From Cytophagales bacterium (lineage in GTDB: Bacteria; Bacteroidota; Bacteroidia; Cytophagales; Spirosomataceae), in the NCBI GenBank assembly GCA_013298805.1, contig JAAFIU010000002.1, forward strand, positions 1 through 64,000: a stretch of 64,000 nt of DNA, written 5' to 3'. The number at the start of each line of letters is the position of its first letter. Position 1 is the stretch's first letter. The notes under the pieces were generated by a model. It worked only from the letters and a program-made list of their open reading frames with translations, was not told the DNA's origin and ran no database searches. The position numbers were made by a program, and so were the translations under genes. Positions 26,860-62,800 of this stretch are shown here, piece after piece.

Positions 26860-28113
26860 ATGAATATTAGACAACGTACATACAAGTTTCTTCTCCTATC
26901 GATTGCTGTTAACTGTTTACTGATAATTGCTAACTGTCACGGTCAATTATCTAATAAACAAGGTATTAGCACTATTTCTATTCATCCTTCTGGTACATTG
27001 TTCACTTTTGGCTTGCCTCAATCTTCTACCATCCCAAGTGGATTTCAGCAAAGTGTTTTTAGTTATACTCCTTTCCCATTTACCGTTTTTCCAGTAAATA
27101 CAAGTATAAACCGACAAGGGAAAACTGAATTTTCTGGCTTAATTGGCTCGTTTGATTTAGGTTTGAATGTTTCTAAACTATTGAAAAATGACCGTATTTT
27201 CAGATGTGAAGCAGGTGTTTATTATGCTTGTGTACCCCATAGCTATGCAATTGGGAACGATTATCAATTTTTATTGAATAATAAAACCGCAAGTATTTGG
27301 CAAAATACTATTAGTTATTCTGGGCTTTCTGCAAGCCTAACTTACACCTCAAAATCACTTGGGAGAAGAACCTGGGGTGAAGCCAGAAATTATGCTCAAT
27401 TCGGAGTTAGAACAATGAATTATTTGGACAAATCGGCTGAAAATCAAGAAGATTGGGTATTTAATGGCAAAGGGTTTAAAATTCAAAGTGAAGTAATTAG
27501 CAGAAACGCTTTCTTGTTTTTTCTCGAACTTGGCAAAACTTATTGGCGAAGAGTTGATGATATGCGTTCTTTAGATATGGGAATTCGTGTTGGTATTCCA
27601 ACCAATAGTTTTGTTTCTAACACTTTTACGGGTTACAACAATAATCAAGCAACTGGAGCCAATAATATTCTTGAAAATGGGGCATATTTTGGCTTTCAAA
27701 TGTCATATCATTTGCCTTTAGTTCAACTCCAAAAAGAAAAACCAAAAATTAAAAAAGCAGATAGAATTTACTGCGAAATGGAACGCAAAGTTACCGTAAA
27801 ACATCGTTACAGAATCACAGAAAATGAACTGAAAATTCAACTTTACGACCATGAAAATGAAGATGAAGACGAAGTTTCAGTCTGTTTTAATGGTCAATAT
27901 ATCCTTGAAAAATATACACTTACACGGAGACCTAAAATTATTACACTCAAATTTCTCCCAAATCAACAAAATATATTGACTGTATTTGCTCATAATACAG
28001 GTAAAGAAGGAGCAAATACCAGTGCTATTCGGTTTGTATTGAGTGGGAAAACAGAGGAAATTATTTTGTATGCCGATAAAAAAGAAGCGGAAGGGATTGA
28101 GTTTTTGTATTGA
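26860..28113 (+). CDS. Secreted hypothetical protein
   Basis: Signal peptide MNIRQRTYKFLLLSIAVNCLLIIANCHG; no confident family. Confidence 0.7.
   Translation: MNIRQRTYKFLLLSIAVNCLLIIANCHGQLSNKQGISTISIHPSGTLFTFGLPQSSTIPSGFQQSVFSYTPFPFTVFPVNTSINRQGKTEFSGLIGSFDLGLNVSKLLKNDRIFRCEAGVYYACVPHSYAIGNDYQFLLNNKTASIWQNTISYSGLSASLTYTSKSLGRRTWGEARNYAQFGVRTMNYLDKSAENQEDWVFNGKGFKIQSEVISRNAFLFFLELGKTYWRRVDDMRSLDMGIRVGIPTNSFVSNTFTGYNNNQATGANNILENGAYFGFQMSYHLPLVQLQKEKPKIKKADRIYCEMERKVTVKHRYRITENELKIQLYDHENEDEDEVSVCFNGQYILEKYTLTRRPKIITLKFLPNQQNILTVFAHNTGKEGANTSAIRFVLSGKTEEIILYADKKEAEGIEFLY
26903..26937. repeat. Period-7 array inside signal-peptide coding sequence (locus C, right arm)
   Basis: TTGCTGT TAACTGT TTACTGA TAATTGC TAACTGT; complement resembles left arm (ACAGTTA ~ AGAGTTA). 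Confidence 0.65.
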
Positions 28114-59668: not shown

Positions 59669-60754
59669 TTAAATTGACTTTACGTAACTACCAAGCCATT
59701 TAATTTCAGAAGCGTGTTTTGCCATAATTTCTTGAACACTTTCGTCTAAAAAATACCCATCAAATTCCATCAAGAACCAAAAATTGAACTGGTCGCCTTC
59801 TTTCACGGGGCGACTTTCTATTTTTAGTAAGTTGATACCTCTACTCTCAAATTCTTGTAAAAACTTCATTAGTGTACCGGGTTTACCATCTTCTGGTAAA
59901 CGAGCAATAATTGTCGTTTTATCATTATCACTTTTTTGATTGATAAAATCCTTCCCAATTATAAAAAAGCGAGTACGGTTTTGAGCCGAATCCTGAATAT
60001 TATCAAACAAAATAGGTACGTCAAATAATTTAGCAGCAATGTGCGAACAAATAGCAGCCGAACTTGGGTCATGTGCAGCTAATCTTGCAGCTTTTGAAGT
60101 AGAGTCAACTTCTATAAAAAAGTCTTCTTCTTTACCCGCAAAATAATCGGTCAAAAAATTCTCACACTGTCCAAAAGCAATGTCTTTTGAATAAATTTTC
60201 TTGATGTCTGATAGTTTTTCAGCCTTCGTCGCAAAAGTAAAATGCACCGAAATAGCGACCTCCGCAACAATTTTCAAATCCGTTTCATTAAGCAAATCTA
60301 TGGTCTCTTTGACAATTCCTTCCAAATTGTTCTCAATCGGTACAACGCCAAATCTTGCCCGACCTGTATCTATGCTTTCAAACACTGAACGAATATTCGG
60401 AAGGGCTAAGTAATCGCTCATTGCCCCAAATCTACTCTCAGCAGCTTGATGCGTAAAACTGCCTTCTGGCCCTAAATAAGCAATTCTTTCAGGTAATTCA
60501 AGGTTTCTTGAAACGGCAAAAATTTCTAAATAAATTGCTTCAATCGCCGCACGGTTTAGTAATCCATTATTCATAGAAGCTAATCTATCAACAATTTGCT
60601 TTTCTCTTTCGGGACGATAGATTACAGTTTGTGTACTTTTTTTAAATTCACCAACTTGTTTTACAACTTCCATTCGCTGGTTCAGAATTTCCAGCATTTG
60701 GTTGTCAAGGGAATCAATCTGATTTCTTAGTTCTTCGAGGGACATGATTTTCAT
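59669..60754 (-). CDS. pheA: Bifunctional chorismate mutase/prephenate dehydratase
   Basis: N-terminal AroQ-type chorismate mutase; LGPEGSFTHQAA; ESRPVKEGDQFNFWFLMEFDG ACT domain. Confidence 0.93.
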   Translation of the reverse strand: MKIMSLEELRNQIDSLDNQMLEILNQRMEVVKQVGEFKKSTQTVIYRPEREKQIVDRLASMNNGLLNRAAIEAIYLEIFAVSRNLELPERIAYLGPEGSFTHQAAESRFGAMSDYLALPNIRSVFESIDTGRARFGVVPIENNLEGIVKETIDLLNETDLKIVAEVAISVHFTFATKAEKLSDIKKIYSKDIAFGQCENFLTDYFAGKEEDFFIEVDSTSKAARLAAHDPSSAAICSHIAAKLFDVPILFDNIQDSAQNRTRFFIIGKDFINQKSDNDKTTIIARLPEDGKPGTLMKFLQEFESRGINLLKIESRPVKEGDQFNFWFLMEFDGYFLDESVQEIMAKHASEIKWLGSYVKSI

Positions 60755-60757
60755 TAA

Positions 60758-60922
60758 ACAGCTATCAGTTAGCAGTAAACAGTAATGAGTAAACAGTTAT
60801 GAGTAAACAGCAACCAGTTATCAGTAAATTCATATCGGTCAGATAACTATTTACTGCTTAACTGCTAACTGCTTAACTGCTAACTGCTAACTGCTAACTG
60901 CTAACTGCTAACCGCCAACTGC
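60758..60922. repeat. Period-7 tandem array, inverted pair (locus F)
   Basis: Left 60758-60827: ten heptamers of type (A/T)CAGTAA; right 60844-60922: eleven units, seven exact TAACTGC with five consecutive at 60874-60908; fills the pheA-parE gap. Confidence 0.93.
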
Positions 60923-60925
60923 CAT

Positions 60926-62800
60926 TTATGCTGCTAATTCAGCAGGGTCTTTTTCAATTATTAGATTTTCAATGATAAACTTTTGACGGTCGGGGGTATT
61001 TTTACCCATGAAATAGGTCAAAATTTTAGGAATCGTTGTATCTTTTGTAAGAATAACGGGTTCAAGGCGAATATTGTCATTAATGAATTTACCAAACTCT
61101 TCAGGAGAAATCTCCCCTAAACCCTTAAATCGAGTAATTTCTGGTTTAGGGCTTAATTTAGTAATAGCATTTTGACGTTCTTCATCACTATAACAATAAA
61201 TTGTTTCTTTCTTATTTCTTACTCTAAATAAAGGCGTTTCCAAAATATACAAGTGACCATTCCTTACCAAATCAGGGAAAAATTGTAAGAAAAATGTCAT
61301 CATTAATAAACGGATGTGCATTCCGTCAACGTCAGCATCAGTTGAAATGATGATTTTATGATAACGTAAACCTTCCAAACCTTCCTCAATATTCAAGGCG
61401 TGTTGCAAAAGGTTAAATTCTTCGTTTTCATAAACAATTTTCTTAGTAAGCCCAAAACAGTTCAAAGGCTTACCTCTCAAACTAAATACGGCCTGCGTTT
61501 GAACATTACGAGATTTGGTAATTGAACCACTCGCAGAATCACCTTCCGTAATAAAAAGCATTGTCTCGTATCTATCATCAGATTTTTCATCCGTTAGATG
61601 TACCCTGCAATCTCTTAGTTTTTTATTATGTAAGTTTGCTTTCTTGGCTCTTTCATTAGCAAGTTTTTTGATACCTGCCATGTCTTTACGTTCCCGTTCC
61701 GACTGCTCAATTCTCTTTTTAATTGCCTCTGCAACCACTGGATTTTTATGCAGATAATTATCAAGATTTGTTTTGATAAAATCTCCAATAAAACTTCTAA
61801 CCGATTGAGAATTAGGGTCAGGCGAAACATTACTTGAACCTAATTTCGTTTTCGTTTGGGATTCAAAAACGGGTTCTTGAATTCTTACGGCAATAGCACC
61901 AACAATACTTGCACGAACATCTTCTGGGGCATAATCCTTTTTATAGAATTCACGAATTGCTCTGACGATTGCCTCACGAAAGGCTTGTAAATGGGTCCCT
62001 CCTTGCGTAGTATTTTGACCATTCACGAAAGAATAATATTCTTCACCATATTGATTTCCATGAGTGATTGCCATTTCAATATCGTTTCCTTTTAAATGAA
62101 TAATTGGATAACGTCTTTCATCTTCCGCAGAATATTTATTCAATAAGTCGAAAAGTCCATTTTGGGAAAAATATTTTTGACCATTGAAATTAATTGTCAA
62201 ACCTGCATTCAAATAGGCATAATTCCATATCAAATTCTCAAGAAACTGAGGAATATAGTGGTAGTTTTTGAAAATTGTATTGTCAGGTTCAAAGGCAACG
62301 TGCGTACCATTCCGAGCGTTGGATTCTGCTCCATCTGCCGATTCATTTATTAATTCACCTTGTTTAAACTCTGCCCATTTAGTTTTTCCATCACGGAATG
62401 ATTGTACTTTAAAATACGAAGCTAAGGCATTCGTTGCTTTTGTACCAACCCCATTTAGTCCAACTGATTTCTGGAAAGCCCCAGAGTCATATTTTCCCCC
62501 AGTATTAATTTTTGATACGCAATCAATAACTTTTCCTAATGGAATACCACGCCCATAATCACGAACTTCAACACGGTGGTCAGAAATTTTAATCTCAATT
62601 GTTTTCCCATTCCCCATCATGTGTTCGTCAATTGAGTTATCCATGATTTCTTTCACCAACACATAGATACCGTCATCGGCAGAAGAGCCATCTCCCAATT
62701 TACCGATATACATACCAGGACGAAGACGTATGTGTTCTTTCCAATCAAGAGACCGAATATTATCTTCGGTATAAGTTACATTTTCAGGTACTGTGGCCAT
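60926..62800 (-). CDS. parE: DNA topoisomerase IV subunit B (GyrB/ParE family)
   Basis: [60 protein letters not shown]. Confidence 0.92.

Follow-up and report, generated by a model that had tools for sequence, protein, structure and literature searches.

An inverted heptamer array in the parE–pheA gap of a Cytophagales bacterium and its relation to intergenic heptamer arrays of other lineages

The gap between parE and pheA in the Cytophagales genome analysed here is filled by heptamers, which are arranged in two inverted arms around a short core. This array belongs to an already described kind of intergenic heptamer arrays and, as judged from sequence, looks like drifting filler DNA of that kind rather than a switch of pheA. 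With a probability of roughly 60%, it represents a paired inverted heptamer minisatellite of non-coding gaps, which slips locally in place and is confined by the neighbouring genes. Whole 7-nt units are gained and lost in each arm, the core is retained and the arrays end at coding sequence.

Architecture of the array

The window, i.e. the whole 64,000-nt stretch of DNA that was analysed, is contained in G000, a draft genome of 4.87 Mb that is 87% complete. The array is flanked by two housekeeping genes (Table 1); in phase-variation contingency loci, a change in repeat number switches a surface or restriction gene. Its left units read, in order, ACAGCTA, TCAGTTA, GCAGTAA, ACAGTAA, TGAGTAA, ACAGTTA, TGAGTAA, ACAGCAA, CCAGTTA and TCAGTAA. 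The right units are TAACTAT, TTACTGC, (T), TAACTGC, TAACTGC, (T), five times TAACTGC, TAACCGC and CAACTGC, (T) denoting a single T insertion. Seven of the eleven right units are exactly TAACTGC, five of them consecutive. These counts, including the ten left units and the two insertions, had been given in an earlier note on this DNA and were confirmed on the sequence. Likewise, its statement that the array fills the entire gap holds, with coordinates that are right almost to the base: between the end of ParE (60926) and the first in-frame PheA ATG (60754), 3 nt on either side are not part of the array.

Table 1. Positions of the array elements and flanking genes in the window, and location of the shared-core loci elsewhere in the genome
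Feature	Position	Strand	Remarks
Outermost left unit TCATTAA, degenerate	60751..60757	.	makes ATG 60752-60754, taken as pheA start by mechanical ORF calling
Left arm, ten CAGTTAN-type heptamers	60758..60827	-	TAACTGN on minus strand, aimed at pheA start
Core ATTCATATCGGTCAGA, 16 nt	60828..60843	.	kept in orthologous gap of G007
Right arm, eleven TAACTGN heptamers	60844..60922	+	aimed at parE stop; T insertions at 60858 and 60873
pheA, fused chorismate mutase / prephenate dehydratase	59669..60745	-	from conserved start
parE, topoisomerase IV subunit B	60926..62800	-	gene upstream of array
Shared-core loci L002, L003, L005, L007, L009, L046	G000 C425, C162, C168, C213, C14, C146		core always inside heptamer arms

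The array is not a product of chance, because its right arm reaches a TRF score of 108, period 7 alone among periods 4–11 gives a strong local autocorrelation, which within the window is restricted to the parE–pheA gap, and the RNA of the gap folds 6.4 standard deviations better than dinucleotide shuffles (z −6.4). The earlier note regarded the array as the most homogeneous one. It is indeed the strongest in the window, but contigs C162 and C317 of G000 carry arrays with about 17 and 15 near-perfect units, respectively.

ORF calls were mechanical throughout, and the start of pheA requires a correction. The position of the ATG at 60754 is occupied by CTG in three same-genus orthologues (G007, G004 and G006), and PheA of four further same-genus orthologues aligns only from residue 4. 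The conserved start of PheA is probably the ATG at 60745 (MSLEEL...), and one more degenerate unit at the outer end of the left arm would therefore be part of the array. The ATG at 60754 then probably lies inside this eleventh left unit. Transcription of pheA would probably proceed from the parE transcript or from a promoter within parE, since the gap read in the pheA sense contains no TTTG, without which the Bacteroidota −7 motif TAnnTTTG cannot be formed.

Elsewhere in the window, four to five TAACTGN-like units form a second, short run on the plus strand (26903–26936), and the segment 49003–49101 contains a short exact tandem of TTTGATG (3.6 copies) with a repeat of the 14-mer CGAACATCAAAAAT nearby.

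Arrays across the genome and across phyla

The census of G000 was compiled from searches and retrieved stretches and is therefore a minimum; clusters were counted from five units upwards. At least 44 such clusters are present in the stretches retrieved, 38 of which have the order CAGTTAN–core–TAACTGN, five lack a right arm, one is of mixed type and none is reversed. All two-armed arrays (38/38) share one polarity. A search of G000 with the parE–pheA array gave 94 matches, and TAACTGNTAACTG, with one mismatch allowed, was found 403 times, compared with 69 times for the reversed pattern. The last base of the unit is variable: TAACTGC predominates at parE–pheA, and units ending in A, T, G or C occur elsewhere in the genome. 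The arrays closely approach the flanking genes, with median distances of 2 nt to stop codons and 5 nt to start codons. According to a simple ORF caller, 30 of 41 arrays lie between codirectional and 11 between convergent genes, whereas divergent gaps are devoid of arrays. Among background gaps of 60–300 nt, 7/30 in the window and 12/129 in the retrieved stretches, which are a biased sample, are divergent. At the pooled frequency of 12% (19/159), the chance of finding 0/41 is about 0.005 by our own calculation.

In six convergent gaps of G000 (Table 1), AAAAAAGCCAGTTTGGGAATTGTTAGTTCCCAAACTGGCTTTTTT or a close variant forms the core, a terminator-like bidirectional hairpin with an A run ahead and a T run behind. 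The near-identity of these cores implies some copying between loci. Related cores with arms are found in G007 (several) and G002, and G003 has a decayed core of this family without arms. Cores that recur in this way, nearly always together with heptamer arms, and the single polarity of all copies would be in line with a mobile element of the MITE or REPIN type, the heptamer terminal repeats of which were spread by a transposase and later underwent slippage in the arms. Such an element is nevertheless improbable. A shared core is a property of the terminator-core subgroup, while the parE–pheA array and most others have cores specific to their locus. Target duplications were not apparent. In addition, array positions are largely common between species: ten of 20 sampled array regions of G007 are gaps orthologous to G000 arrays, and parE–pheA makes eleven. 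Like REPIN/RAYT systems, the arrays are inverted extragenic repeats scattered in many copies, but they differ in that a conserved REP hairpin is missing and no association with a transposase was found. Y1 transposases occur in 8/8 genomes of the genus, whether or not these contain arrays, and only 1 of the 11 Y1 transposases of G000 has heptamers within 1.5 kb. A RAYT/Y1 transposase as mobiliser was rejected on the grounds of this missing proximity in G000 and the missing correlation with arrays across the eight genomes.

A second dispersed REP-like palindrome, AGCGGAACGCCGCCCGCTG or variants of it, can be observed in or beside several arrays, namely L012 (G000 C125, about 1480–1580), L137 (about 1940), L009, L038 and L146.

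At genus level, 4 of 8 genomes contain three perfect TAACTGN units, compared with 14 of 151 at family level. Among named genomes, a set that may lack records close to G000, at least 116 stretches contain four perfect TAACTGC units; the matches listed comprise Bacteroidota, Balneolaceae, Gammaproteobacteria, Chloroflexota, Myxococcales, Planctomycetota and Microcystis, some records of this cross-phylum set being metagenome bins. Among these listed matches, 27 paired clusters display the polarity of G000 and none the reverse. Many of the arrays listed are one-armed and still keep the polarity: single left-type arms are closer to the left gene in 30/34 cases and right-type arms closer to the right gene in 24/26. 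Where the distance to a gene boundary is at most 40 nt, again among the matches listed, the arms obey the polarity in 64/73 cases at stops and 24/26 at starts (88/99 in total). Apparent start–start gaps account for 12/81 of the listed cross-phylum sample, as judged by unrefined ORF calls, and avoidance of divergent gaps is therefore not universal. No report of a cross-phylum polarity rule for the TAACTGN heptamer was found in the open-access literature.

Orthologous gaps in related genomes

The parE–pheA gap was compared in eight genomes of the genus (G000–G007). TAACTGN arrays of very different length are present in G000, G007, G004, G006 and G002. A remnant of 21 nt is left in G003, the 97-nt gap of G001 is free of heptamers, and the 246-nt gap of G005 harbors inverted GGGATTN/NAATCCC arms composed of an unrelated heptamer (GGGATTA). 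GGGATTN-type arrays of identical polarity are found at other sites of G005, too. There is a second locus at which one orthologous start codon is bordered by a TAACTGN array in G000 (L025) and by an AATCCC array in G005 (L234). In the open-access literature, no description was found of one orthologous gap occupied by two heptamer families within a genus. Outside the genus, the parE–pheA gap has inverted heptamer-like arms in two other genera (GAGTTAT- and GAACAGT-like units) and measures 12–53 nt, with no arrays, in still other genera. Judged from these gaps, pheA needs no particular sequence in front of it, and the array would exert no sequence-specific control, because relatives have another heptamer, a remnant or none.

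At the arrays orthologous between G000 and G007, the cores can be aligned. The respective array spans are 104 and 69, 112 and 119, and 194 and 383 nt, with differences of 35, 7 and 189 nt, all of which are multiples of 7. Further spans are 145 versus 241 nt (with an N run) and 87 versus 251 nt; all of these spans have to be read with the reservation that draft assemblies can collapse repeats and that two G007 arrays contain N runs. Three spans are unchanged (125/125, 71/71 and 41/41 nt). Throughout the left arm of one convergent gap, GCAGTTA is replaced by GCAGTAA. The earlier note had proposed a dynamic rather than a fixed array, which agrees with the variation of unit number and unit sequence among same-genus genomes; invariance across relatives, which it had set against this proposal, was seen neither at the parE–pheA gap nor at several orthologous gaps.

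In G007, the parE–pheA gap has the same core as in G000, one left unit fewer, a right arm that differs by 1 nt, and the T insertion near 60873 in common. The length of the array is, by this comparison, older than the split between G000 and G007. The idea that it is the youngest array was dropped because its almost equal length and one T insertion are common to both genomes. The right units of G007 are mixed, and the clean run of TAACTGC is special to G000; homogeneity alone may be recent, or the array of G007 may have decayed. That this gap is the best place to follow changes in copy number applies to a small extent, given that it differs from G007 by one 7-nt unit and 1 nt and other loci by 5 or 27 units.

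A more complex arrangement is found at L217 (G007 C10, 2584–3009), where a unit of ~79 bp, consisting of five heptamers and unique DNA, is present in about 4 tandem copies; the corresponding site of G000 is a simple array.

The facing arms raise the question of a functional RNA hairpin. In this case, pairing of the arms in the parE–pheA transcript would bring the parE stop and the pheA start together and serve mRNA processing (e.g. by RNase III), mRNA stability or the coupling of translation, and any sequence would do provided that pairing is maintained. Consistent with such a role, the gap folds well, comparable gaps of G005 and two other genera have inverted arms of other heptamers, divergent gaps of G000 lack arrays, and the arms end at stop and start codons. 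However, complementarity of the arms is not specific to the locus. In a permutation of same-locus against swapped arms, p was 0.88 in G000 (36 loci) and 0.79 in G007 (8 loci), and co-evolving hairpin arms were rejected in both genomes; in G005, p was 0.12 for six loci only, with the parE–pheA array ranking first of 6. Moreover, one-armed arrays with the same polarity are frequent among the matches listed, and short array-less gaps suffice for the parE–pheA pair in relatives. A functional hairpin is thus unlikely. Good folding results from the presence of one unit in opposite orientation in both arms and, since the arms are not fitted to each other within a locus, the hairpin looks like a by-product, which would be tolerated rather than selected.

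Known heptamer arrays and the origin of the polarity

Intergenic direct repeats of TAACTGA are known from Beggiatoaceae, Cyanobacteria and five Bacteroidetes (MacGregor 2015, PMC4679880). They mostly comprise 2–6 direct copies, with a single inverted pair in BOGUAY, differ by 7-nt indels between related strains, and show a forward bias at starts and reverse orientation after a stop codon (PMC4679880). The arrays described here share the heptamer up to its last base, the intergenic site, the 7-nt indels and the forward orientation near starts, with tandem copies of TAACTGA or one-base variants a few nt from the start codon (median 5 nt). A paired, inverted layout around a core, in contrast, is the rule in G000 and not in those repeats. 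For TAACTGA in Beggiatoaceae, MacGregor proposed that a regulator, of translation or of another process, binds directly ahead of starts. TAACTGN indeed runs forward into the pheA start and ends a few nt before it, but polarity is identical at stop codons and in convergent gaps without any start, and the heptamer is replaced or absent at the pheA start of relatives, so that regulator sites appear highly improbable.

Dozens to hundreds of intergenic heptamer arrays have been described for GGGAATC in Xanthomonas and GGGGA(C/T)T in Anabaena (Rehm et al. 2015, PMC4692102). GGGAATC forms about 70 facing pairs, in which the G-rich strand leaves the nearest ORF, and few arrays lie in divergent gaps; their position is conserved and their length variable between species, and no function or regulatory role was found (PMC4692102). 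The layout in G000 is alike, with facing arms and the G-richer strand leaving the flanking ORFs (38/38). TAACTGN is, however, a different heptamer and not a member of the GGGAATC family; it lacks a G tract and cannot form the G-quadruplexes for which GGGAATC arrays were studied (PMC4692102). Degenerate heptamers flanking a hairpin in variable copy number are also found in the P6b heptanucleotide hairpin of the Nostoc tRNA-Leu intron (PMC3488679, after Costa et al. 2002), which is a single intron locus, unlike the genome-wide intergenic arrays of G000. Heptamer arrays have so far been treated separately from one another, and both their names and the roles assigned to them differ between reports.

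For a minisatellite that slips in place, the number of units would change via replication slippage, and selection against harm to coding sequence and promoters would check expansion, with the consequence that arrays occupy all of the space between a stop codon and the next start codon. Slippage and selection alone account neither for the strict polarity, in which the G-richer CAGTTA strand runs 5'→3' away from the nearest coding sequence, nor for the unrelated heptamer in the orthologous gap of another species. The polarity rule, which holds for starts as well as for stops and recurs in many phyla, is a sharp constraint for any mechanism, and orthologous gaps, with the core kept and unit number varying or with another heptamer in the same gap within the genus, provide a natural experiment on array origin.

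One conceivable, though very unlikely, source of the polarity is a strand-aware DNA process, in which 3' DNA ends within gene gaps are extended by a machinery that adds a G-richer heptamer specific to the lineage (CAGTTAN, GGGATTA, GGGAATC and others), similar to telomere repeats being added to both ends of a break that are then joined. If true, this would explain why arms face each other around a core, why arrays abut genes, why the polarity is uniform across phyla and why sister species can have different heptamers in one gap. No enzyme for 3'-end extension with heptamers was found. A reverse transcriptase of the RVT_1 (Pfam) type as writer of the repeats was rejected, since none was found in the array-rich genomes G000 and G004, which is a weak argument in view of the 87% completeness of G000.

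Within the family, several genomes (G013 and genomes of genus g17) contain the reversed control pattern GTCAATNGTCAATNGTCAAT as well, which suggests a further lineage-specific heptamer.
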